DNA of 59,485 bases from the NCBI GenBank assembly GCA_029251525.1, contig JAQXDE010000053.1:1-59485 (forward strand), written 5' to 3'. The stretch comes from Saprospiraceae bacterium (lineage in GTDB: Bacteria > Bacteroidota > Bacteroidia > Chitinophagales > Saprospiraceae). Position 1 is the first letter of the stretch, and each line of letters starts with the position of its first letter. The notes beneath the pieces were generated by a model that was not told the origin of the DNA, did no database searches, and saw only the letters and a program-made list of their open reading frames with translations. Positions 36,853-51,491 of this stretch are shown here, in pieces. A program made the position numbers and the translations under genes.

Positions 36853-38691
36853 ATGAAACATTTTTTTAATTTCATTTTTTTAATTTCATTTTCCATCTCT
36901 CTCTTTTCCCAAAACAAGATAGAAAGGCTCGAGCCAGCTAATTGGTGGATTGGAATGGAACATCAAAACATCCAACTTTTAGTCTACGGTAAAAATATTG
37001 CAGACCTAGATCCAAAAATAGAATCTACTGATTTGACAATTCGACAAGTTACAAAAGTCCAAAATCCAAACTATCTTTTCCTTGACATTTTAATAAATAC
37101 AAATGCAAATGCAGGAACGATAAATATTGATTTTTATCAAAATAAAATAAAAATAACCTCCCACCCTTTTCAACTCTTAGATCGAAAACGAGGTGCTGAC
37201 GAAATCGTTGGTTTCGACTCCAGAGATGCAATATATTTAATCACTCCAGACCGATTTGCGAATGGAAATCCTTCCAATGATAATATTGAAGGGATGAAAC
37301 AAAAAGCAAATCGAAGTGATAAAGGCGGAAGACATGGAGGTGATATTCAAGGCATGAAAAACAGTTTGGATTATATCAAAGATTTAGGTTTTACCTCAAT
37401 TTGGTTAAATCCAGTTTTAGAAAATGATATGGAAGTTTATTCTTATCATGGATATTCGACTACAGATTTTTATAAAGTTGACCCTCGTTTTGGAACAAAT
37501 GAATCTTACCAAGATTTTGCAGAAACAGCTAGAGCAAAAGGATTGAAATTAATCATGGATATGATTGTCAATCATTGTGGTTCCTTTCATTGGTGGATGG
37601 ATGATTTACCTTCTGATGATTGGATTAACCAATGGGATGAAATGACATTTACAAATCACCGCAAAACCGTTTTGCAAGATCCATATGTTTCTGATTTTGA
37701 TAAAAAACAATTTACTGATGGATGGTTTGTAGAAACTATGCCTGATTTAAATCCAAGGAATCCACTCTTTGCAAAATACTTAATACAAAATAGTATTTGG
37801 TGGGTAGAATATTTAGGTTTATCTGGAATTCGGATGGATACTTACCCTTATCCTGATATGGACTTTATGACTGATTGGACTAAAGCGATGATGAAAGAAT
37901 ATCCATATTTAAATATTGTTGGAGAGGAATGGTATGAACATCCTACAATTGTTTCGTATTGGCAGAAAGGAAAAAATAATCCAAACGGTTATACTTCTGA
38001 GTTAAAAAGTGTGATGGACTTCCCTATTCAAATGTCAATGTCAAAAGCACTTAATGAAAAAGAAAATTGGAATTCTGGTTGGATTAGAGTTTATGAAATG
38101 TTAGCTCTAGATTATCTTTATCCTGACCCAATGAACTTGGTTATCTTTCCTGACAATCATGATATGAAACGAATCTTTGCTCAGGTGAATGATGATTATA
38201 ATAAATACCAACAAGCCATGATTTTTGTTGCAACGATGCGAGGAATTCCACAATATTATTATGGTACTGAAATTTTGATGAGTGGTAGTGGTGATCATGG
38301 AATTATTAGGAGTGATTTCCCTGGTGGATGGAAAAGTGATGAGGTCAATGCGTTTACTGGCAAGGGTTTAACAGTTCAACAAAAAAAAGCTAAAGATTTT
38401 ACAACAAAGCTTTTACATTGGAGACAATCAGCAACTGCCATCCATAATGGAAAATTGATGCATTTCATTCCTAAAGATGGAATTTATGTTTATTTCAGGT
38501 ATAATGATGATCAAAAGGTGATGATTATTTTTAATAAAAACCAAAATGAAACAACTATAGATTTAAGTCGATATGCTGAGATGTTAAAAGGAAAAACAAT
38601 AGGGACAGATGTCTTAGATGGAAAGGTTTTTTCCTTGGATAATAAAATTCAAGTAGCGAAAAATGGAGCCACAATTTTGGATTTAAAATAA
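36853..38691 (+). CDS. SusA-like GH13 alpha-amylase (neopullulanase/cyclomaltodextrinase type), exported
   Basis: The 612-residue enzyme has a signal peptide (1-20, ending SLFSQ), a beta-sandwich N-terminal domain (about 21-110; ERLEPANWWIGM is the cyclomaltodextrinase-type start), the catalytic barrel and a C-terminal beta domain (about 525-612). Family motifs are DMIVNHCG (235-242), GIRMD with nucleophile Asp329, GEEWY with acid Glu358 and FPDNHD with Asp437. It should cut alpha-1,4 bonds of maltodextrins or cyclodextrins. No lipobox or T9SS domain is seen, so it is periplasmic like SusA of Bacteroides. It would act on oligosaccharides brought in by the SusCD pair; products would then go to the transporter at 33.7 kb. 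Confidence 0.95.
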   Translation: MKHFFNFIFLISFSISLFSQNKIERLEPANWWIGMEHQNIQLLVYGKNIADLDPKIESTDLTIRQVTKVQNPNYLFLDILINTNANAGTINIDFYQNKIKITSHPFQLLDRKRGADEIVGFDSRDAIYLITPDRFANGNPSNDNIEGMKQKANRSDKGGRHGGDIQGMKNSLDYIKDLGFTSIWLNPVLENDMEVYSYHGYSTTDFYKVDPRFGTNESYQDFAETARAKGLKLIMDMIVNHCGSFHWWMDDLPSDDWINQWDEMTFTNHRKTVLQDPYVSDFDKKQFTDGWFVETMPDLNPRNPLFAKYLIQNSIWWVEYLGLSGIRMDTYPYPDMDFMTDWTKAMMKEYPYLNIVGEEWYEHPTIVSYWQKGKNNPNGYTSELKSVMDFPIQMSMSKALNEKENWNSGWIRVYEMLALDYLYPDPMNLVIFPDNHDMKRIFAQVNDDYNKYQQAMIFVATMRGIPQYYYGTEILMSGSGDHGIIRSDFPGGWKSDEVNAFTGKGLTVQQKKAKDFTTKLLHWRQSATAIHNGKLMHFIPKDGIYVYFRYNDDQKVMIIFNKNQNETTIDLSRYAEMLKGKTIGTDVLDGKVFSLDNKIQVAKNGATILDLK

Positions 38692-38927: not shown

Positions 38928-40748
38928 CTACTTCGTTACTGCAAATCTTTTCGAAATCAAGAAACCTTCTCCTCTCATTTGAATTACATAAAAGCCTGTA
39001 GGGTAATTAGCAACGTTGAAAGAAATATTGTTAGCTGATTCGTAAATTCCAGTTTGCATTAATCTACCAGTCATATCGAAAACCACTACTTGTGCATCTC
39101 CCTGCAAATCAACACCTTCGATAGTAATATTTACCAAATCAGTTGCTGGATTAGGAAATATTTTCACATCATTTACGGTAAATGGATTATTTACTCCATC
39201 CAAAATTGAAAATGAATAATCTCCATTATATTCATCGGAAATAGCAAATGGATTTGTCGTCTGCAATGAAATAAAATAATTACCAGCAGCAGCGATATTA
39301 ATATTTGGACCATCTTGAGTTGCAGCTCCCATCGGGAAATCGATACCTCCCCAGTTACGTAACCAATCATCATCTTTTCTCATTTTAAACTCACCAGCCG
39401 TTAAAGCTTGAGTCGCTGTCCATAATCCAACTGTAGTTGCATCCTGAGTAAAATCAGTATCGTCATCCCAACCCCCAGTTGGTGATGCAGGACCGATTGA
39501 TCCTAAAGAAGCAGGCGTAAAACTATAATCACCAGTTGTCGAATTAAATGCAATTGTCCATGTACCAGCAAAAACAGTAATATTTGGATCCCCATTATTT
39601 GAACCAGAACCAGTAGGAAAACCTGTATCTCCCCAGCTATTATCCCAAGCATCATCTGCACGGAATTTCAATTCTCCATCTCCAACTGTTATAGTTAGCA
39701 ACCAATCATCAGAAGCAGTAGGATCTGGATTTTTAAACATATCAATATCATTATCCCATCCTCCCACTGAACTACCTATTACTCCAATAGTCGCATAATC
39801 AACAATAGGATCTTTAAATTCATAGATACCAGAAGTATCATTGAATTCCAATAAATAGGTTCCCATTGGAGCATTAATATTTGAACCAGAACCAAATAAA
39901 GCTGTATCTATTGGGAAATCTTGAACTGCGTCAGTTCCCCAGTTATAATCCCATGAACTGTCTCCTCTGAATTTAAACTCTCCATCGAAATCACCTGTAA
40001 TCGCCCATTGATGAACATTCCCATTAATGTTTGACATGCCCATTTCCGTGTCCCAAGTTCCAGTTGGAGAACCTGCTCCGATTACTCCCATCGTTGAATA
40101 AATAGGAATAAAAGAAGAGATATTATATTCACCTGTTGCAGTATTTATTTCTACTAGATATTCCCCAGAAGAAGGAATAACAAAATTACTTCCACCTGAA
40201 GTTGCAGCTACACCACTCAATCCACCTCCACCATCAGCCCATTCGTCCATCCAAACACCATCAGCACGAAACTTACATTCACCGGCATTTAAGTCTAAAG
40301 TATCTCGGAATGTCCATGGTGCATTAGCTACAGGAGTCAAAAATATATCCGTACTCCAATCGATTCCCGCTTCTCCAATTAATCCAACTTGAGCATAGAT
40401 ACTATCCTGAAAATCAAAATTATATTCACCTGTTGCAGAATTAAATGTTACATCAAAGTTTCCACCAGGTATTGGAACATCGGCTCCACCTTGAGTTCCT
40501 GTTCCCATTGGAAAATCAGCAGCTCCCCAATTAGTTAACCATGTATCATCAGTACGGAACTTTGCAGCTCCATTTTTTAAATTAATATTAATCGTCCAAA
40601 GATCTGTATTGGTCATGTCATTTGTCATATTAGTTTGTGCACCCCAACCTTGATCAGTTGCAGAACCAATAATACCTAACGAGTCAAATTGACCAAAAGA
40701 AATTGTTACAAAAAATAGTAGTGTAATTGTTAGTAAATTTTTCATCAT
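38928..40748 (-). CDS. Five-module SusE/F-like starch-binding protein with T9SS sorting domain
   Basis: The 606-residue product has a signal peptide (1-20, ending TISFGQ) without lipobox. Five modules of about 95 residues follow (about 22-113, 118-212, 217-312, 318-411 and 415-514), each with GVIGSA or similar at the start, an aromatic turn GW or TW, KFRADD or a variant, W..NWG, FP.G and a closing TGEYNF. The same module occurs in the SusE-like and SusD proteins next door and matches the starch-binding SusE/SusF fold. The end (about 524-606; VKIFPNPATDLVNI) is a type A T9SS sorting domain, so it should be put on the surface by the T9SS instead of the lipoprotein route used by Bacteroides SusE and SusF. 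A role in binding starch is inferred. Confidence 0.87.
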   Translation of the reverse strand: MMKNLLTITLLFFVTISFGQFDSLGIIGSATDQGWGAQTNMTNDMTNTDLWTININLKNGAAKFRTDDTWLTNWGAADFPMGTGTQGGADVPIPGGNFDVTFNSATGEYNFDFQDSIYAQVGLIGEAGIDWSTDIFLTPVANAPWTFRDTLDLNAGECKFRADGVWMDEWADGGGGLSGVAATSGGSNFVIPSSGEYLVEINTATGEYNISSFIPIYSTMGVIGAGSPTGTWDTEMGMSNINGNVHQWAITGDFDGEFKFRGDSSWDYNWGTDAVQDFPIDTALFGSGSNINAPMGTYLLEFNDTSGIYEFKDPIVDYATIGVIGSSVGGWDNDIDMFKNPDPTASDDWLLTITVGDGELKFRADDAWDNSWGDTGFPTGSGSNNGDPNITVFAGTWTIAFNSTTGDYSFTPASLGSIGPASPTGGWDDDTDFTQDATTVGLWTATQALTAGEFKMRKDDDWLRNWGGIDFPMGAATQDGPNINIAAAGNYFISLQTTNPFAISDEYNGDYSFSILDGVNNPFTVNDVKIFPNPATDLVNITIEGVDLQGDAQVVVFDMTGRLMQTGIYESANNISFNVANYPTGFYVIQMRGEGFLISKRFAVTK

Positions 40749-40879: not shown

Positions 40880-41935
40880 TTAATTTTTTGTCAATTCAAA
40901 ATAATAATCTGATACTGTCAAGTATAAATCAACTGTATAATTACCAGCTTCTGAAATGGCTATATCATCTCCATCTAATTCCAATGTGCCGTTGGCAAAA
41001 TTATCTCCAAAGGTAAAGTCATCTGAATCGTTTGCTCTAAATCTGATACCTCCTTCTATCAAATCTAAAGTAGCAGTCAATGCTAATTTAGTTTCATCCC
41101 AAACAAAATCTACATCTGTAGTAGCACCTCCAGAAGTTGCGGAACCTAATACTCCCCAATCAGTTTTCATTTGTGCATGAGTCAACATGTTCAAATCGCA
41201 GGTTAAAAAATACATTCCGTATCCATCCGAAATTGGAATATCATTTCCTACATCTGCAAAATCTAAAGCCCAATCGATAGGATCATAATCGCCCCAATTG
41301 ACTGCCCAGCTTAACCCTTGCGCATATTTATAAACTGCACTATCTATTCCAAAGTAAATATAACCCTCATAAACTTCATCACTTCTTCTAGAGTAAACTG
41401 AGTAATTCTCATCAGAGGGATCCCATGCATTTGGTAATTGATAATCACCTGGAACAGTTAGTTTTGGATAAACAACTTCTGCTTGATATGGATTCACCTT
41501 TATAGAAACAGCATCAGAGCAAAGTTCATCTACCAAGTCGCTTACCTTTGCGCAAACACGTATTTCCAGTTCATTCTCAAAACCAAATGGAAGCCCTTTT
41601 GCCAAAAGAATATTATTTAACTTCCCTTGTGTCAATTCTTCCAAAGACAATTCAGAAGTTACTCCTAAGGTTATTGCTTCTGCAAAATCATTCCCCGCTG
41701 CATCAATTTGCAGACTATAGGTAATCCCTGCTTGATACCCAAAGTCGGCATTAGTCCAAGCAGCTCCGGGTAGTAATTCGTCAGCCATAGTTTCATCTAA
41801 AGTAAATAAGGTTCCTGATGCTGGATTTATAATTACGGGAACTGCTCCTAAGTTAATTATAGGATCTTGGTCTTTTTCATTGCAAGCTATAAAGAATAGA
41901 ACTATGCCTAAAATAGAAAAAATATATTGTTTCAT
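40880..41935 (-). CDS. SusE-like outer-membrane starch-binding lipoprotein
   Basis: The 351-residue lipoprotein has a lipobox FIAC (Cys18). An N-terminal domain (about 28-150, from DPIINLGAVPVI) matches the SusE N-terminal domain. Two C-terminal modules follow: one about 155-255 (VYEGYIYF, AVNWGDYD) and one about 256-351 (WGVLGSATSGG, IRFRANDSDD, GNYTVDLYLT). The pair closely mirrors the two modules inserted in the SusD encoded just upstream (for example VYEGFVYF and WGLIGSATADG). SusE-type proteins bind starch at the surface around the SusCD transporter. It follows susD by 173 bases in the same direction and is probably part of the operon susC-susD-susE. Confidence 0.88.
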   Translation of the reverse strand: MKQYIFSILGIVLFFIACNEKDQDPIINLGAVPVIINPASGTLFTLDETMADELLPGAAWTNADFGYQAGITYSLQIDAAGNDFAEAITLGVTSELSLEELTQGKLNNILLAKGLPFGFENELEIRVCAKVSDLVDELCSDAVSIKVNPYQAEVVYPKLTVPGDYQLPNAWDPSDENYSVYSRRSDEVYEGYIYFGIDSAVYKYAQGLSWAVNWGDYDPIDWALDFADVGNDIPISDGYGMYFLTCDLNMLTHAQMKTDWGVLGSATSGGATTDVDFVWDETKLALTATLDLIEGGIRFRANDSDDFTFGDNFANGTLELDGDDIAISEAGNYTVDLYLTVSDYYFELTKN

Positions 41936-42108: not shown

Positions 42109-44316
42109 TTAGTATCCACCATTTTGATCTAGATTTGGATTCGCTCCGATATCAGCAGCAGGGATTGGAAAATAATTATATTTTGCATCAACTGCAGCTC
42201 CAGATGGATTGCCTCCTTTAAAATCCCACATATAATCACTTGTTGTCAATTGATTGTATCGAACTAAATCTGTTCGTCGGTGACATTCCCAATGTAATTC
42301 TCTTGCTCGTTCATCTAAGATAAACTGTAAATCTAAATCCGCCATTGTGATATTTCCTGCGTCTTCTCCATATGCTCTAAATCGTACGTTGTTTATATAA
42401 TCAGTAGCAGTTGTCATGTCTCCACCTAAACCTCCCCGAAGTACCGCTTCAGCATACATTAAATACGCATCAGCAAGCCGAAACATTGGAAAGTCAATAT
42501 CTACCCATCTAACATCAGAACCATTTGATCCATCGCGATTAATATTTTTAAATTTCGTAGGAGGGTAACCTTCTGTAAATTCTGCAATTTTCTCGATTAC
42601 TCTATTTTGCCCATCCACATGGAACATTGCCCTACTATCAACTGTATTAGTTTCAATTGAATAAGTGTAATCAGGTTTGTCGATGTACAGTAAAATTTTA
42701 TATGTTCCTGCATTTTCAATATTAATATCTCCTCCACCCTCTTCTAAGATAGCATCAGCTGCATCATCTCCAAAGTTCAAATCCCATGCATCGTTTGCTC
42801 TAAACTTAATAACACCAGGCTGTAGAAGTGCTGTTATCGACCAAGCTCCCTCTGCTACATTATAAGTCATATCTTGATCAGAATCCCAACCGTCAGCAGT
42901 TGCCGATCCAATCAACCCCCAATTAGCAGGTTCAAAAGAATAAGTTAAGTTAACTAAATCAACAGTCACTTTATAACCTCCTGCATCCGGAATTACAATA
43001 TTAGGACTACTATTTCCCTCGTCTAAAGTTCCATCACCTCCAATATCTCCGTAGTTAACTGTAAGGTTCGCATTTGGAGTAAATTTAATTTGGGTATTTG
43101 GATTTTCAAAATAAACAAAACCTTCGTAAACATCATTTTCTAATGGAGAGGATAATTTACTTGCATTAGTAAATTGCCATCCAGCGTAAGATCCTGCTAC
43201 AAAAATTTCTGGATAGGTATTACCTGTTTGAGGAGCTACAATTAATCCTCCAGCTCCACCAGCTATAACTGGAAATTTATTAACCAAAGCACTAGTTGCA
43301 CGAGTTCCTCCCCATCCACTTTCTACTCCAAACTCTGATGAGATCATATTACCTCCAATACTTGCTCTCAGAATAAAAGTCATTCCTCCCCAAGTCCGGG
43401 TAAATTGTCCATCAAATACAATTGGAAAAATTATTTCGTCAGATAAATAATTATCTGACAAAAATAAATCTTGATAATTTTCATCTAAATAATATCCAGA
43501 ATCAATTACTTTTTTAGTGTATGTAATCGCATCTGAGTAAGCATTTTTCCCAGCATAAACTTCTGCGTTCAAATATAATTTTGACAACAACATCCATGCA
43601 GCTGCTTGATCTGCTCGTGCATATTCATTAGTACGAGGAGCCTTTAAATCGACTTCAATTTCAAGTAACTCAGATTCAATCCATGTATATAAATCTGCAG
43701 CCTTAATTTGTTCTGGAAAAAATGAACCAACAATATCATCCTCTGTAACAAATGGAACATTTCGGAAATGATCTAAAGCATGCCAATAACTTAATGCTCT
43801 TAAAAATCTAGCCTCAGCTCTAAACGTTTGAATTTGTCCTCGAAGATCAGAATCGACTCCTCTTTCATCTAATTTCTCATCAGTTGTCTCTCTCATAAAC
43901 TCATTACAAACGGAAATTTGATAATAAATTCGGCTATAAAATGCAAAAATAAAATTGTCATTTGCATCCCAATCTTGCTCATGAAAATCACCAATTGTTT
44001 GGTCATTCCAACCAACAACCGCTTCATCTGTTGGAAATTCTTGATGATACCAAAGTGCTCTTAAATATTGGCCAAATCCCTCATCAATTCCTTCAATATC
44101 TGCCTGACCTGATGGTCCCTCTTGACCTGTAAGAGAAAGTCCTGCATATAATTTTGCTAAAACTTGCTTATATGCTTCTGGATTATCGTAAGCTGTAGCT
44201 GCTGTAATTTGGTTTTCATCTAAAGGAACTGTATCCAAATCATTAAAACAAGCAGTGAATGTAATTACCAAAACAAGGAATATGAATATTGATTTTGTGT
44301 AGAATTTATTTTTCAT
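42109..44316 (-). CDS. SusD-like lipoprotein with two inserted SusE/F-type modules
   Basis: SusD binds starch oligosaccharides and acts as the lid over SusC. The lipobox is FTAC (Cys23). The N-terminal half (about 24-355) is regular SusD: a TPR-like helical bundle with RAEARFLRALSYWHALDHFRNVPFV and RADQAAAWMLLSKLYLNAEVY. The C-terminal part (about 557-735) resumes with FPMFRLADAYLMYAEAVLRGG and ERARELHWECHRRTDLVRY. Between them, at about 360-556 (bases 42650-43240), sit two SusE/F-type modules, one starting IFVAGSYAGW with VYEGFVYF and one starting WGLIGSATADG with IKFRANDAWD. The total of 735 residues compares with roughly 500-570 for normal SusD. The insertion keeps the reading frame and is flanked by family sequence on both sides, so it is a domain capture rather than an error. 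Added starch-binding sites on the lid are inferred. Confidence 0.88.
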   Translation of the reverse strand: MKNKFYTKSIFIFLVLVITFTACFNDLDTVPLDENQITAATAYDNPEAYKQVLAKLYAGLSLTGQEGPSGQADIEGIDEGFGQYLRALWYHQEFPTDEAVVGWNDQTIGDFHEQDWDANDNFIFAFYSRIYYQISVCNEFMRETTDEKLDERGVDSDLRGQIQTFRAEARFLRALSYWHALDHFRNVPFVTEDDIVGSFFPEQIKAADLYTWIESELLEIEVDLKAPRTNEYARADQAAAWMLLSKLYLNAEVYAGKNAYSDAITYTKKVIDSGYYLDENYQDLFLSDNYLSDEIIFPIVFDGQFTRTWGGMTFILRASIGGNMISSEFGVESGWGGTRATSALVNKFPVIAGGAGGLIVAPQTGNTYPEIFVAGSYAGWQFTNASKLSSPLENDVYEGFVYFENPNTQIKFTPNANLTVNYGDIGGDGTLDEGNSSPNIVIPDAGGYKVTVDLVNLTYSFEPANWGLIGSATADGWDSDQDMTYNVAEGAWSITALLQPGVIKFRANDAWDLNFGDDAADAILEEGGGDINIENAGTYKILLYIDKPDYTYSIETNTVDSRAMFHVDGQNRVIEKIAEFTEGYPPTKFKNINRDGSNGSDVRWVDIDFPMFRLADAYLMYAEAVLRGGLGGDMTTATDYINNVRFRAYGEDAGNITMADLDLQFILDERARELHWECHRRTDLVRYNQLTTSDYMWDFKGGNPSGAAVDAKYNYFPIPAADIGANPNLDQNGGY

Positions 44317-44344: not shown

Positions 44345-47329
44345 TTAAAAATTCGCACTTACTCCTAAAAGTATTGTTCGAGTTCTTGGGTAAATATTAT
44401 TATCAATTCCACTTTGAAGTTCTGGATCAACACCTGAATAAGGTGTGATAACCAATGGATTTTGTAAAGTCGCAGAAATAGTGATAGACCCTTTGTCTTT
44501 GTAAACATTATCAAATCTGTAACTAGCTGTAATGTGATCTAGTCGAAAAAATGCAGCATTTTGTACGAAGTGGTCACTAAAATATTCAGGATTTTCAAAT
44601 TGAATGTTATCAATATCTGTTATTGAATTTGACAAAACATTTGGTGATAAAAACAATCGATTATAAAAAGTATTCGATTGTACATTGTTGTAAACATAGT
44701 TTCCTGAGTTCGCTCTAGCTGCAACTGCTAAATCAAAATTCTTATAACTTAGGTTAGATGTAAAACCAAAGAAATAATCTGGTGCTGCTTTTTCAAATCG
44801 ATATTGATCATCAGGAGAAACTACACCATCGCCATTTCTATCTACATAAAGTCCTTCGATAGGATCACCATTTTCAGCATAAACTTGCTCATAAACAAAG
44901 AATGAAAATGCAGGATAGTCCACACTATGAATTTGAATATTAGAACCAACTCCTCCAGCAATTCCTCCCACCAAAACACCTTGATAATCGGGATCATTGG
45001 TTGCAGTTAATTTCGTAATTTTATTTTCATTTCTTGTTGCATTGAATCCAAATTCCCAAAGAATATCTTTAGTCTGAACTGGTACAAAATTTAATGATAG
45101 CTCCACCCCTTTATTTTCTAAATTCCCAACATTTGTAGTTACAAAATTAGATAAGTTAGTTCCTGCTGGAACTGGAATTCTATTCAATAAATCCTTTGTT
45201 TTTCGAATATAATATTCTGCAGAACCATAAACCCGATCTTTAAAAAATCCGAAATCAACTCCCACATTATATGTAGTAGTAGTTTCCCATTTGATATTTG
45301 CATCGTATTCTTCCGGACGGAAAGTTGAAACATAAGTATTTCCAAATTGATACTGAGCACTTTCCAAACCTAAAGTATAAACTGGTAGGTAGGCATAATA
45401 ATCTAATTCTTGATGACTATCTCCTATGTCCTGTTGACCAGTTACGCCATAACCTAATCTTAATTTAAGCTTATTAAATTTACCCTCCTTGTTATCATAA
45501 ATTTTGTAAGCAAATGCAGCTGCTGGAAACATTCCAAATCGATTATCTTTTGAAAAACGAGAAGAACCATCTTGACGCAATGTAAATGTAAATAAATACT
45601 TGTCTTGCAAAGTATAATTCACACGTCCAAAAAGTGATAATAAATAATACTCTCGAGGTTCGATTCTCTCAACTGTCTCTTCAGGTGTTCCAGCCACATC
45701 TGAACGCAACGAGTAATTTTCAACAAAGAAATGTTGCCAAGAGTATCCCCCCATCACATCTAGTTTACTTTTTCCAAATTCCTTTACATAGTTTAAATAG
45801 AATTCAAGTAATTCGTTCTTTTTAGTTTGGTTATATTTATTATTTACCCCACCGCCTGTGATTGGATTAAATGAGAAAGACGCGACTGTAGGAACTTTAA
45901 CAGTACCTCTTCCTTTAGAATAGTCATATCCTAAATTCAAATTAACGCGAAGGTCTGGCAAAAACCAAAGTCGGTAATTAGCACTCACATTTGTCACATA
46001 TCTAGAAACTTTCCCAATGTCTTCTCTCATGTCCAAAAGTGCCATTGGATTTGTTGGTGACAACCTATTAGGATTTTTCATTGCATCAGCAAAGTAAGTA
46101 AAGTATCCACCGTAAGGGCTCTCGCTATCAAAAATTGGTTGAGTTGGATCAAAAGAAATAGCATTACCAATTGCACCACGGTCCGCAAAATTATTTTTTG
46201 ACCACATTCCCTTAAAGTTAAAATTAACTTGCAATTTATTTTCTAAAAATCCTGGAGAAAGATTTAAGGAAGCAGTTGATCTTTCAAATTTATCATTTTT
46301 CAAAACACCTGATTTATCGGTATATCCAAAAGATGCTCTGTAAGGTAAAATATCTCCTACCCCTCCTGATAAACTCAAACTATGGTCTTGACCAAATGCC
46401 GAACCATAAATTTCGTTCTGCCAATCGGTATCCGTATTTCCTAAAGAGGCCACTTCTGTACTTCCTTCACCATAAGTCTCAGTAATTAATGCACGATAAG
46501 AATTTGCATCAAAAACATCAATTGTATTTATTATGCTACTTGAAGAAATATTACCACTATAATTTACATCAACTTTTTTACCAAGCTTACCTTTTTTAGT
46601 AGTAATTAAAATAACTCCGTTAGAAGCTCTACTTCCATAAATAGCCGTTGCTGATGCATCTTTTAAAACTGTAAAAGTTTCAACGTCATTTGGATTAATC
46701 AAATTAAGAGAATTTCTGGAGCCTGAGATGCCTCCATTATCAACTGGTACCCCATCGATAACAATCAAAGGATCATTTGATGCATTTAAGGAAGAACCTC
46801 CACGAATTCGGATGACAGCCCCATCTCCTGGTGCACCACTATTCGTTGTTATATTAACACCAGCGATTTTTCCAGCCAATAATTCTTGAGGTGACGTAAT
46901 TGAACCCTTATTAAATGCTTTTTGATTCACTACTTGAATAGAGCCAGTTGCATCCTCTTTTTTGGTTGAACCATACCCAATAATAATAACTTCTTCAAGA
47001 ACAGATCCCACAATCATTTGAACATTGATAATGTTCGATGCTCCAATAGTAATTACTTTAGTAGTAAACCCAGTATAGCTAAAAACTAAGTTAGTTGCCC
47101 CCTCTGGAATATCAAGGGTATAAGCCCCATCAATATCAGTCGTAGTACCTGTATCTGTTCCTTCGATCAGAATATTGGCTCCTATCAAAGTTTCGCCATT
47201 CTTGGCATCAGTTAAAACTCCTGTAATTGTTCGTTGACCATTGGTATAAAAACCAACAAGTAGAAAAGCTAAAAAAAGAAGAAATCCTTTTTTGGGAATG
47301 TAAATTTTGAATTTCATATAGTTTTGCAT
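44345..47329 (-). CDS. SusC-like TonB-dependent starch oligosaccharide transporter
   Basis: The 994-residue barrel imports maltooligosaccharides across the outer membrane with energy from TonB. A signal peptide (about 1-31, ending YTNGQ) leads to a carboxypeptidase-regulatory-like domain (about 32-110, TITGVLTDAKNGETLIGANI), a TonB-dependent plug starting VLEEVIIIGYGSTKKEDATGSI, with the SusC pattern GSSLNASNDPLIVIDGVPVD and ASATAIYGSRASNGVILITTKKG, and a 22-strand-type barrel to the C-terminus (LLGVSANF). It precedes susD by 28 bases, the normal order. It is divergent from the large amylase; the intervening 500 bases hold an operator candidate. Confidence 0.95.
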   Translation of the reverse strand: MQNYMKFKIYIPKKGFLLFLAFLLVGFYTNGQRTITGVLTDAKNGETLIGANILIEGTDTGTTTDIDGAYTLDIPEGATNLVFSYTGFTTKVITIGASNIINVQMIVGSVLEEVIIIGYGSTKKEDATGSIQVVNQKAFNKGSITSPQELLAGKIAGVNITTNSGAPGDGAVIRIRGGSSLNASNDPLIVIDGVPVDNGGISGSRNSLNLINPNDVETFTVLKDASATAIYGSRASNGVILITTKKGKLGKKVDVNYSGNISSSSIINTIDVFDANSYRALITETYGEGSTEVASLGNTDTDWQNEIYGSAFGQDHSLSLSGGVGDILPYRASFGYTDKSGVLKNDKFERSTASLNLSPGFLENKLQVNFNFKGMWSKNNFADRGAIGNAISFDPTQPIFDSESPYGGYFTYFADAMKNPNRLSPTNPMALLDMREDIGKVSRYVTNVSANYRLWFLPDLRVNLNLGYDYSKGRGTVKVPTVASFSFNPITGGGVNNKYNQTKKNELLEFYLNYVKEFGKSKLDVMGGYSWQHFFVENYSLRSDVAGTPEETVERIEPREYYLLSLFGRVNYTLQDKYLFTFTLRQDGSSRFSKDNRFGMFPAAAFAYKIYDNKEGKFNKLKLRLGYGVTGQQDIGDSHQELDYYAYLPVYTLGLESAQYQFGNTYVSTFRPEEYDANIKWETTTTYNVGVDFGFFKDRVYGSAEYYIRKTKDLLNRIPVPAGTNLSNFVTTNVGNLENKGVELSLNFVPVQTKDILWEFGFNATRNENKITKLTATNDPDYQGVLVGGIAGGVGSNIQIHSVDYPAFSFFVYEQVYAENGDPIEGLYVDRNGDGVVSPDDQYRFEKAAPDYFFGFTSNLSYKNFDLAVAARANSGNYVYNNVQSNTFYNRLFLSPNVLSNSITDIDNIQFENPEYFSDHFVQNAAFFRLDHITASYRFDNVYKDKGSITISATLQNPLVITPYSGVDPELQSGIDNNIYPRTRTILLGVSANF

Positions 47330-47831: not shown

Positions 47832-50800
47832 ATGAAAAAAATAATATTATTACCTCTTCTAAGTTTTTTATATCTCTTTACAAATGCACAAATGGTCTCC
47901 CTTTCTCCTCCCGACGCAGGAGCTGGAGATAATGCTATCTTAATTTTTGATGCCTCAGAAGGTAATGGTGAATTAATTGGAGCTAGCAAAGTTTATTTAC
48001 ACCATGGTGCCATTATAGACGGTCCAACAAGCACAAACTGGCAATATGTAATTGGCAACTGGGGAGCAGATGATGGTATTGGTGAAATGACTCCAGTAGC
48101 TGGCGAAACTGATAAATGGCAAATTGATTTTACACCTACAATTCTTGAATATTACGGAGTACCAAGCAATGAAGATATTTTTAGATTATCATTGGTATTT
48201 AGAAATGCTGATGGAACTATCAAAGCTACATTAGCTCCCGGGAATTACGGTTGGGGGACAGTAGAACCAAATTTAGATATTTATATTAATTTGAATTCAG
48301 GTGATTATGTTTCAATCAATGCACCAACAAATGATAGCGAATTTTTATCATCAGGCCAACCAGTTTCAATTTCGGGTACTGCTTCTAATGAGGTTTCTTC
48401 CATGAAAATCTGGGTGAATGAAGGAACTGGTTTTGAAGAAAAAGCAAGTGTCTCCTCTGGAACTTCTATTAATCATTCTTACTTTCCCTCTGCTAGTGGG
48501 TTGGTTCAAATAAAAATTACCGCAATTATTAATGGTGATGAATTAGAAACAGAAAAAGATTACGCAATTACTATTTTACAACCTGTGGTTGTCGAAAATT
48601 TACCTATTAATGTCAAATCAGGAATCAATTATGATACATCAGATGCCTCAAAAGTTACTTTAGTTTTGGAGGCGCCAAATAAAGATTTTGTCTTTGTATT
48701 AGGTGATTTCAATAACTGGATTGCACTTGATAACTATCAAATGAAAAAAACACCTAATAGTCAATACTTTTGGTTGGAATTAACAGGCCTCACACCAAAT
48801 CAACCCTACGTTTTCCAATATTGGATGGAAGAAGGTGTAAAAGTTGGTGATCCATATGCTGAACAAACTGCTGATCCATGGAATGACCAATGGATTGATG
48901 AGGTTACTTTTCCTAACCTTCCTTTCTATGATAAAACTGATTTTGGCTTTGCCTCCGTTTTGCAAACTGGTCAAATTGACTACCCTTGGGGACCTTCTGA
49001 AGATTCCTGGGAAAGACCTGATGTAAATCACTTGGTAATTTACGAATTATTAGTTCGTGACTTTATAGGTACCCACTCTTGGGAAGATTTGGAAGATTCA
49101 TTGGCATATATTGCAAACTTGGGTGTTGATGCAATTGAAATCATGCCATGGAATGAATTTGAAGGGAATGAATCTTGGGGCTATAATCCAGCCTATTATT
49201 TTGCACCTGACAAATATTATGGTACAAAAGAGGACCTTAAACATTTTATCGAAATTGCTCATCAACATGGTTTGGCTGTAATCATGGATGTAGTAATGAA
49301 TCATGCCTTTGGTCAAAATCCAATGGTCAAAATGTACTTCGATGAAAATACTGGAACGCCCTCCGCAATTAATCCTTGGTTCAACAAAGATTATGTTGGC
49401 CAATATCAATGGGGATATGATTGGAATCATGAATCACCTTATGTGATTGATTTCCTGGATCGATTAAATAAATTTTGGATTGAAGAATATCATGTGGATG
49501 GTTACCGATTCGATTTTACAAAAGGTTTTACAAATTACGCACCAGGTGGTAGTGTGGACGGATTTGATCAATCCAGGATTAATATAATGAAACGAATGGC
49601 TGATGAAATTTGGGATTTCGATCCAGAGTGCTACATCATATTAGAACATTGGGCTCCAAGTAATGAAGAAACAATTTTGGGCGATTATGGAATGAAAATG
49701 TGGCGAAATAAAAGTTACGATTTCGTTCCTGCAACCGTTGGAAATATAACAGGTAATTTTGGCGGGATGAATTCTCAAGACCATGTTACATTTTTTGATA
49801 GTCATGATGAAAGACGAATTGCAGAACATTGTTTGACAGAAGGTCAATCTAATGGAGCATACGATATTGGCAATCCTTTAGTTATGTATGAGCGTGTAAA
49901 AATGGCTGCTGCCTTTGGTTTCTTAAACCCAGGACCGAAAATGTTGTGGCAATTTGACGAGTTAGGTTACGATATTCATATTGATTTTAATGGTCGAGTA
50001 GGCAACAAACCTCTACCTTGGGGCTCAGGTGGATTAGGATATTATGAAGACCCTTTACGTCAATATATTTATGATGCTTATCAAGGAATTTTGGATGTTC
50101 GAAATACAATAGGAGCTGATACATTATCTTTTGCTCAGACAAATCATAAAACTAGTGGATCGACTCGACGATTAGTTTATAATAATGTTGGACAAATTGA
50201 TTTAGTGGTAATTGGAAATTTTGGCTTAGGAGACGAATCAATTAATCCAAATTTTCCATCAAGTGGAATATGGTATGATTACTTTTCAGGAGATAGCATT
50301 GATGTGAATCTCACAAGTGAAATGATTAATTTGAAAGCGGGTGAGTGGCATATTTTTACAGATAAAAAATTAAATGATGGTTTGCCAGGAGTGGTTGCAG
50401 TCTATGAAAATCCAGTTACCATCTCACCTGACCCTTTTACTAAAAATGATCAAATCACAATTACCTTTGATGCTAAAAAAGCATCACCAAATGGAACTGC
50501 AGGATTAGTTGATGCAGAAAAAGTTTACATACATTCAGGAGTTATTTTATCTGATCCATCAAGTACCACTTTAGAAAATATTGTAGGAACATTTACAGAT
50601 GATGGAATTGGTTTGATGACAGAAGTAAGTCCTGACATTTGGGAAATCACTTTAACAATAGCTGATTATTATTCACTTGGAGCAAATGATCAGCCATTCA
50701 AAATTGGTATGTATTTTAGGGATGCTGACAATATGAATGTTGGAATGGGATTTCGAAATGGAGTCATTTTTTATGATGTTGACTCTGACCAACCATTTAT

Positions 50801-51491
50801 TACTGTTGAACCAGCAGCCTACACAATTGATGATGAAATCACAATTACCTTTAATGCTAAAAAAGGAAATAGCGAGTTAATTAATGCGGATAAAATATAT
50901 ATGCACAGTAGTGTTGGCTTAATTGAAACCACAACACCTCAAAATAATGCTTGGGGGAATGTGATTGGAAATTGGGGACAGGACAATGGAGTGGGTGAAA
51001 TGACAGAGATAACTAATAGTCCTGATCTTTGGGAAATTACTTTGACTCCAAAAGATTATTTCGGACTTTCTAATGGTGATTTAGTTTACTGGTTAGCAGC
51101 AGTTTTCAGAAGCGCCGATGGAAATACGAAGGGTACTGGTCAACCTGGTTCAATTCTAAATGGATTTATCCACACTAATCAAGACTTTTTCATCCAAAAT
51201 CAAATCACAGTTTCAAATGAAAATTTTGATTTAAAAAACCAGGAAGTGGTAATCTTTCCAAATCCGGCTAAATCACAAGTAGATATTCTGATGAAAAATA
51301 TTTCTGGAAAGGTGCGAGTTGAATTATTTGATTTAATGGGAAAAAGGGTTTTACTAGATAGTTTAAAAATTGATGGTTTAGAAGAATATATTCATTCTGT
51401 AGATATAGGAAATGTTCCAAATGGAATGTATTTTGTAAAAATAGTTGGCAGTAAATTAATGATTACCAAAGAATTAATAAAAAACAACTAA
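47832..51491 (+). CDS. Large multidomain GH13 alpha-amylase with T9SS sorting domain
   Basis: The 1219-residue enzyme has a signal peptide (1-19). Domains in order: a module of about 130 residues (22-155), a short Ig-like domain (about 160-250), a CBM48-like domain (about 262-345; FVLGDFNNW), the GH13 barrel (about 400-760), a C-terminal beta domain, two more copies of the first module (about 858-985 and 992-1122) and a type A sorting domain (about 1138-1219; VVIFPNPAKSQVDI). Catalytic motifs are DVVMNHAFG, GYRFD (Asp561), ILEHW (Glu605) and FFDSHD (Asp659). The repeated module has KVYLHHG, KVYIHSG or KIYMHSS and is presumably carbohydrate-binding, but I do not know the family. It should be surface-exposed or released and would start starch attack for SusCDE. 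Confidence 0.94.
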   Translation: MKKIILLPLLSFLYLFTNAQMVSLSPPDAGAGDNAILIFDASEGNGELIGASKVYLHHGAIIDGPTSTNWQYVIGNWGADDGIGEMTPVAGETDKWQIDFTPTILEYYGVPSNEDIFRLSLVFRNADGTIKATLAPGNYGWGTVEPNLDIYINLNSGDYVSINAPTNDSEFLSSGQPVSISGTASNEVSSMKIWVNEGTGFEEKASVSSGTSINHSYFPSASGLVQIKITAIINGDELETEKDYAITILQPVVVENLPINVKSGINYDTSDASKVTLVLEAPNKDFVFVLGDFNNWIALDNYQMKKTPNSQYFWLELTGLTPNQPYVFQYWMEEGVKVGDPYAEQTADPWNDQWIDEVTFPNLPFYDKTDFGFASVLQTGQIDYPWGPSEDSWERPDVNHLVIYELLVRDFIGTHSWEDLEDSLAYIANLGVDAIEIMPWNEFEGNESWGYNPAYYFAPDKYYGTKEDLKHFIEIAHQHGLAVIMDVVMNHAFGQNPMVKMYFDENTGTPSAINPWFNKDYVGQYQWGYDWNHESPYVIDFLDRLNKFWIEEYHVDGYRFDFTKGFTNYAPGGSVDGFDQSRINIMKRMADEIWDFDPECYIILEHWAPSNEETILGDYGMKMWRNKSYDFVPATVGNITGNFGGMNSQDHVTFFDSHDERRIAEHCLTEGQSNGAYDIGNPLVMYERVKMAAAFGFLNPGPKMLWQFDELGYDIHIDFNGRVGNKPLPWGSGGLGYYEDPLRQYIYDAYQGILDVRNTIGADTLSFAQTNHKTSGSTRRLVYNNVGQIDLVVIGNFGLGDESINPNFPSSGIWYDYFSGDSIDVNLTSEMINLKAGEWHIFTDKKLNDGLPGVVAVYENPVTISPDPFTKNDQITITFDAKKASPNGTAGLVDAEKVYIHSGVILSDPSSTTLENIVGTFTDDGIGLMTEVSPDIWEITLTIADYYSLGANDQPFKIGMYFRDADNMNVGMGFRNGVIFYDVDSDQPFITVEPAAYTIDDEITITFNAKKGNSELINADKIYMHSSVGLIETTTPQNNAWGNVIGNWGQDNGVGEMTEITNSPDLWEITLTPKDYFGLSNGDLVYWLAAVFRSADGNTKGTGQPGSILNGFIHTNQDFFIQNQITVSNENFDLKNQEVVIFPNPAKSQVDILMKNISGKVRVELFDLMGKRVLLDSLKIDGLEEYIHSVDIGNVPNGMYFVKIVGSKLMITKELIKNN

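Follow-up and report, generated by a model that had tools for sequence, protein, structure and literature searches.

The SusD-like lid protein encoded in the window (the whole stretch of 59,485 nucleotides analysed here, contig JAQXDE010000053.1 of the Saprospiraceae bacterium assembly GCA_029251525.1) is 735 residues long, and it raises the question of what the additional part of this protein is, how it came to be there and what it may do for glycan uptake. An earlier note on this DNA had proposed that the surplus lies between two normal SusD halves and consists of two starch-binding modules of the SusE/SusF type, resembling the two C-terminal modules of the SusE-like lipoprotein whose gene comes next. 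Our results bear this out: the lid is a SusD of the alpha-glucan type, one loop of which holds two inserted beta-sandwich modules of the SusE/SusF type. The best overall explanation, to which we give a probability of roughly 0.7, is that the inserted modules add glycan contacts to an alpha-glucan SusD lid and that such modules have been captured at least twice.

The lid gene (42109-44316, minus strand) lies directly 3' of the gene for its partner, a SusC-like TonB-dependent transporter of 994 residues encoded on the same strand (44345-47329; TIGR04056 above cut-off). Both Pfam SusD families, PF14322 and PF07980, match the lid above their cut-offs, the sequence offers Cys23 as the lipobox cysteine of a lipoprotein, and the NCBIfam SusD exception model NF033071 matches with E 2.1e-124 and 415.8 bits, short of that model's own cut-off of 725. 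A PF07980 search of the same genome found three SusD places, the lid being the longest frame (741 residues vs 566 and 513). The neighbouring SusE-like surface lipoprotein (40880-41935, minus strand, 351 residues) has PF14292 at its N-terminus, followed by a free pair of modules (residues 154-259 and 260-351); because PF14292 is found in this neighbour and is absent from the lid, the lid is not classed as a SusE. On the plus strand lie an alpha-amylase family protein with DUF4961 and a type IX secretion (T9SS) sorting domain, all recognised by Pfam (47832-51491), and a further frame that we take for an amylase from its sequence alone (36853-38691). The flanking alpha-amylase family gene suggests that the locus may be directed at alpha-glucans. 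Next to the SusE-like gene, a SusF-like protein (38928-40748, minus strand) has four PF16411-type modules by Pfam, or five by our module profile, and ends in a T9SS C-terminal sorting domain, so starch-binding modules may here leave via the type IX system and not as a lipoprotein. Four other loci (L038, L039, L041 and L047) encode multi-module proteins similar to it by module profile.

The limits of the insert are well defined. Searches with phmmer against solved structures aligned lid residues 42-348 and 560-735 to the B. vulgatus SusD homologue 3jys, and the match to B. thetaiotaomicron SusD (3ck7) covered residues 25-348 and 560-735; in neither case did residues 349-559 find a counterpart. 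Over both parts, these proteins and the ligand-bound form 3ck9 have the same SusD fold. The loop between the aligned parts has about 14 residues in 3jys and about 46 in B. thetaiotaomicron SusD, neither with a module, whereas here it has 211 (42640-43272), and the interval of 42650-43245 given in the earlier note was right to within about 30 bases. Reading along the protein, i.e. down the coordinates of the minus strand, the SusD N-terminal part (residues 1-348, 43273-44316, placed by alignment to solved SusDs) is followed by a Gly/Ala-rich linker recognisable in the sequence (residues 349-365, 43222-43272), by module 1 (residues 366-465, 42922-43221), which has the first tryptophan of its motif and a leucine in place of the second, by module 2 (residues 466-559, 42640-42921), which falls under PF16411 and has the W, R, W motif intact, and by the SusD C-terminal part (residues 560-735, 42112-42639, placed by Pfam and the alignments). 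Three SusDs of the same family, L117, L118 and L119, have no insert and are 57-60% identical to the lid in the N-terminal and 55-62% in the C-terminal part. In L119 the sequence runs straight through as LVAKF-DGRAMF where the lid reads LVNKF348 and then, after the insert, D560-SRAMF, a clean cut.

Several comparisons establish the kinship of the insert with SusE modules. Pfam matches PF16411 (SusF_SusE) at residues 468-567 with 44.2 bits against a cut-off of 27.5, and pairwise alignment to the neighbouring SusE-like protein gives 69 identities in 196 aligned positions (35%; BLASTP E 7e-33). The Smith-Waterman score of this pair is 261, far above those of 500 shuffles (mean 38.2, s.d. 6.9, maximum 62). 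Profiles of inserted and free pairs (A3 and A4, made from 30 inserted and 24 free pairs drawn from 38 and 54 listed, the window's own included) align over 189 columns with probability 100 and E 9.7e-93. Among solved structures, the dextran surface binding protein BT3088 was matched by the inserted-pair profile at E 9.8e-8 and by the free-pair profile at E 8.9e-7; neither sequence profile matched SusE or SusF there, and a sequence search with the window's insert alone returned one chance-level match (E 0.47). In our alignment A1 of 33 SusDs (23 inserted, 10 uninserted), 18 matched PF16411 at E 0.001. At the same threshold 14 of the 33 also matched PF22058, the pullulanase X25 domain, which suggests a possible link between SusE/SusF modules and X25.

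The architecture is widespread in the family to which the genome belongs. The lid was matched at E 1e-80 in 192 of 398 sampled genomes, and by hand count at least 109 of the 398, the window's included, have an end-to-end SusD of this length; to be counted, a match had to start no later than residue 16 and reach at least residue 723 within a single frame longer than 700 residues, and shorter matches where contigs end, among them some that span the insert, were left out. In a sample of the phylum, 84 of 395 genomes matched and the full-length two-module form was seen in three, all of the same family as the window. Sampling of the class (395 genomes, E 1e-110) gave 16 matches, five with the two-module form, and two of these five genomes, G787 and G859 (the latter covered from residue 136 onwards), belong to another family. 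Scanning genome contigs yielded 39 loci; the record titles of 12 name Saprospiraceae, Saprospirales or Lewinella. Two-module SusDs were also present in metagenome-assembled genomes labelled Bacteroidales (L054, L061), Draconibacterium (L053) and Chlorobiota (L058), labels that may be wrong; those in L053 and L058 reflect either horizontal transfer or mislabelling. The nearest contig outside the genome itself (L047), titled uncultured Saprospiraceae bacterium, is 88% identical over the SusD.

The clean junction and the kinship with SusE modules refute the view, very improbable to us, that the extra stretch is merely the fold of a known larger SusD subgroup or an assembly error. Long SusD homologues do exist among solved structures (7bll, 7nek and 5cjz, of 603-615 residues), but the insert is homologous to SusE modules and is missing at a clean junction in the 57-60% identical relatives, and it recurs in at least 109 genomes and in a sister genome at 88% identity.

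Structure prediction agrees with this picture. Our AlphaFold2 model of the lid, computed from the 33-row alignment, has a mean pLDDT of 83.5, and in it the insert forms two successive strand-rich modules over residues 370-556 (block pLDDT 74-93); linker residues 351-356 fall under 50. The SusD core of the model matches 3jys with a TM-score of 0.90 of the target, and the match to the maltoheptaose-bound SusD 3ck9 has a TM-score of 0.81-0.82. The neighbouring SusE-like protein was modelled with a pLDDT of 86.1, and its best structural match is B. thetaiotaomicron SusF (4fe9, E 1.9e-9), with a whole-chain TM-score of only 0.26.

The lid's own putative starch site is largely kept. In B. thetaiotaomicron SusD we take eight positions to contact starch: D73, R81, W96, W98, N101, D103, Y296 and W320. 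Counterparts in the lid, all in its N-terminal part, are D78 for D73, R86 for R81, W103 for W98 and W335 for W320, with W309 in place of Y296; W96 is replaced by valine, D103 by threonine, and N101 falls in a gap. The last three positions are mostly absent from uninserted relatives too. Equivalents of D73, R81, W98 and W320 occur in all 68 two-module SusDs that we collected, as does an aromatic residue at Y296. The insert starts 14 residues past W335.

The same loop holds different contents in different SusDs. From loci chosen by score and odd length, partial proteins being dropped, we obtained 122 distinct SusDs: 68 with two modules, 41 without insert and 13 with an insert of 100-163 residues. 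As the loci were picked and partial proteins dropped, these figures are not prevalences. Eight SusDs, all of family f24, have a single module of the first type at the site, and these group with a SusD from a record titled Aliifodinibius (Balneolaceae); three, of family f5, have a single module of the second type, one of them recognised at only 30 bits. Inserts of differing content thus occupy one junction. Two further SusDs from a single genus (L107:2786-4624 and L108:1317-3155) have about 100 extra residues there that match neither module profile, and in L107 Pfam finds SusD families only; these residues are possibly a different insert.

To follow the history of the insert, we built a SusD tree from alignments stripped of the insert, using 101 of the 122 rows after removal of near-copies. 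Module presence and absence needs seven changes on this tree by parsimony, which does not distinguish gains from losses. Placing the 59 inserted SusDs in a single clade is rejected, with a log-likelihood lower by 374, the group having been chosen for testing once the tree was known. Uninserted SusDs sit within two-module groups, hence losses occur. In the tree of module 1, the eight single inserts form one group (support 97) apart from the two-module inserts, and this group joins next with four free SusE modules from f24 and Balneolaceae (support 91). Furthermore, a small indel (SGY..DW) is found in all eight single first-type inserts and in four of five free modules of such loci, compared with one of 52 two-module inserts; among free modules elsewhere it occurs in 3/18 at uninserted loci, 4/26 at two-module loci and 0/3 at loci without a complete SusD. 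A single clade of all 60 inserted copies of module 1 is not rejected (p-AU 0.357). The module trees are based on few columns, and that of module 2 is poorly resolved, the three single second-type inserts finding no firm place in it.

The earlier note had suggested that the pair moved within this very operon. This did not hold: the two copies are only 35% identical and the architecture is shared by the at least 109 family genomes, which rules out a recent transfer. Nor would "moved" be the right word, since a free SusE of the same pair type still adjoins the lid here and, by hand count, adjoins 40 of the 68 SusDs with two modules (for a few of the remaining 28 the available sequence is too short to judge), so the insert is a copy. 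We propose that modules would have been copied from SusE genes in operons of this kind on at least two independent occasions and later lost in places: the pair in the window's Saprospiraceae-like lineage, and a single first module in the family whose SusDs group with a Balneolaceae SusD. We hold the view of at least two captures with moderate confidence, and recurrent capture appears to be the best reading of the trees, gain and loss being incompletely separated.

A single ancient insertion of the pair, followed by loss of one or both modules and by horizontal spread, would explain why the inserts share a junction; it also draws on the module 1 test, which leaves one insert clade unrejected, and on the uninserted SusDs nested in inserted groups, which show that losses happen. 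We nevertheless regard it as improbable. Rejection of one inserted-SusD clade counts against a single gain without losses, while the SGY..DW indel ties the single first-type inserts to the SusE of their own family and not to the two-module inserts, and the nesting of these inserts among f24 free modules does likewise. Recurrent capture admits a stronger form, which we put forward tentatively and at slightly less than even odds: the lid loop may be a recurrent landing site, at which families have independently copied the first, the second or both modules of their own SusE to one junction, making the lid a glycan-binding protein as well.

How likely the inserted modules are to bind glycan may be gauged from their aromatic motif, whose W, R and W residues we take to be binding residues. 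Free modules at two-module loci keep it in most or all cases: both tryptophans of module 1 are present in 38/38, and module 2 has W12 in 36/38, R41 in 37/38 and W46 in 33/38 (the window's free SusE, read elsewhere as locus L002, is outside these counts, its locus having been skipped here as a duplicate). Inserted copies of module 1 keep it less often than free ones (W15 in 47 and W54 in 41 of 67), and in inserted module 2 W12 is present in 53, R41 in 57 and W46 in 52 of 67. In the window's free SusE, module 1 has both tryptophans and module 2, which reads GGATTD and NDSDD, has neither; the sister genome's second module (GGTSTD, NDSDD) likewise has neither. For the window, this hints at a possible division of labour between the inserted module 2, with its motif tryptophans, and the second module of the free SusE, without them. 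As a side observation, GH53 genes (a galactanase family) lie directly downstream of two inserted alpha-glucan-type SusDs that keep the module 2 motif (L034:3786-5165 and L144:656-2062), an unexpected pairing.

A lid with its own modules was also suggested earlier to replace free SusE/SusF in part. Among 44 non-redundant two-module SusDs for which 900 or more downstream bases were available, 23 have a pair-type SusE (the window being assigned to this class by hand), and module 2 is intact in 22 of them; of the 21 without one, nine have an intact module 2 motif, and in four of the 21 (L017, L053, L054 and L058) the neighbour is SusE-like but more divergent. SusDs without an adjoining pair-type SusE have therefore more often lost the motif, which is contrary to simple replacement, although this association follows the tree and is not significant over four independent pairs. 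Simple replacement is also set aside by the free SusE that is often still there. The losses include 13 SusDs in one clade of 18 rows (L126-L129, L131-L137, L139 and L145), which retain the insert and the four SusD contact residues but have lost the motif from both modules; next to these 13 we found no pair-type SusE, L128 having only 639 bases downstream. Retention of the insert in these relatives points to another purpose, or another binding mode, in some species. Genes downstream in this clade include GH13 members at L127 and L133, where the motif is lost, the two GH53 genes mentioned above (L034 and L144), and unrelated ones at L137 and L140.

One such purpose would be docking or spacing, the SusE-type pair touching SusC, SusE or a surface amylase and holding the complex together, with glycan binding incidental or lost. 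The 13 motif-less relatives, which keep fold, site and SusD contacts, speak for it, as do the surface binding proteins of the levan and dextran utilisomes, which sit on SusC according to PMC7618045. For the insert in general we think it possible but unlikely, as most inserted second modules, the window's included, keep each of W, R and W, and as no indel of more than two columns distinguishes the SusC partners of inserted (16) from those of uninserted (8) SusDs. Strong differences in filling are confined to five columns in this comparison, from which the partner of one SusD with an unrecognised insert was left out. A special SusC partner for inserted SusDs was accordingly rejected.

In the explanation that we prefer, glycan binding by the insert is the likely function in the window, as judged from the modules it carries. 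They sit at a length-tolerant loop shortly after W335 and would project from the lid, an orientation deduced from sequence position only. Through its intact motif, module 2 would provide glycan contacts next to the lid's own site, and a chain would be held by the lid itself near the transport site and not only by a separate SusE. Homology, motif and position are the grounds on which we infer this enlarged glycan-holding surface.

The inserted modules are of the same family as those of the SusE/SusF lipoproteins (SusF 4fe9; PF16411), and the protein with the free pair resembles SusF by fold. In those systems the modules form a separate lipoprotein, whereas here they are also inside the transporter lid. 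A 'looped' alpha-glucan SusD is described for marine Flavobacteriia in PMC11093988, where such SusDs are classed by a stretch of some 17 residues close to the binding site and their loci include SusE; this is a short loop, in contrast to the folded modules seen here. Utilisomes are the subject of PMC7618045. There, the levan surface binding protein docks near SusD and the enzyme, and such proteins act close to the SusD lid in the levan and dextran systems, as we propose here, but as separate lipoproteins with a mobile binding domain, whereas our modules are covalently part of the lid. The same paper regards the starch complex as probably more dynamic than these utilisomes. Among the matches listed from the open-licence literature (CC-licensed PubMed Central articles), no title or opening of an abstract deals with a SusD that has SusE/SusF modules. 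The constituent families are known; their arrangement, apparently a new one, would be visible in Pfam as co-occurring domains.

For the cooperation of SusE and SusF with the starch importer SusCD, PMC7618045 sets out two views, one of a stable and one of a transient complex. Covalent SusE modules in SusD, widely kept and apparently gained more than once, suggest that placement on the lid is useful. If the loop is indeed a recurrent landing site, SusE would work close to the lid during import, and the inserts would be a natural covalent record of where. On a practical matter, domain-based calls of 'SusD' and 'SusE/F' can fall on one protein, and SusDs with zero, one or two modules provide natural constructs for testing what placement on the lid does.
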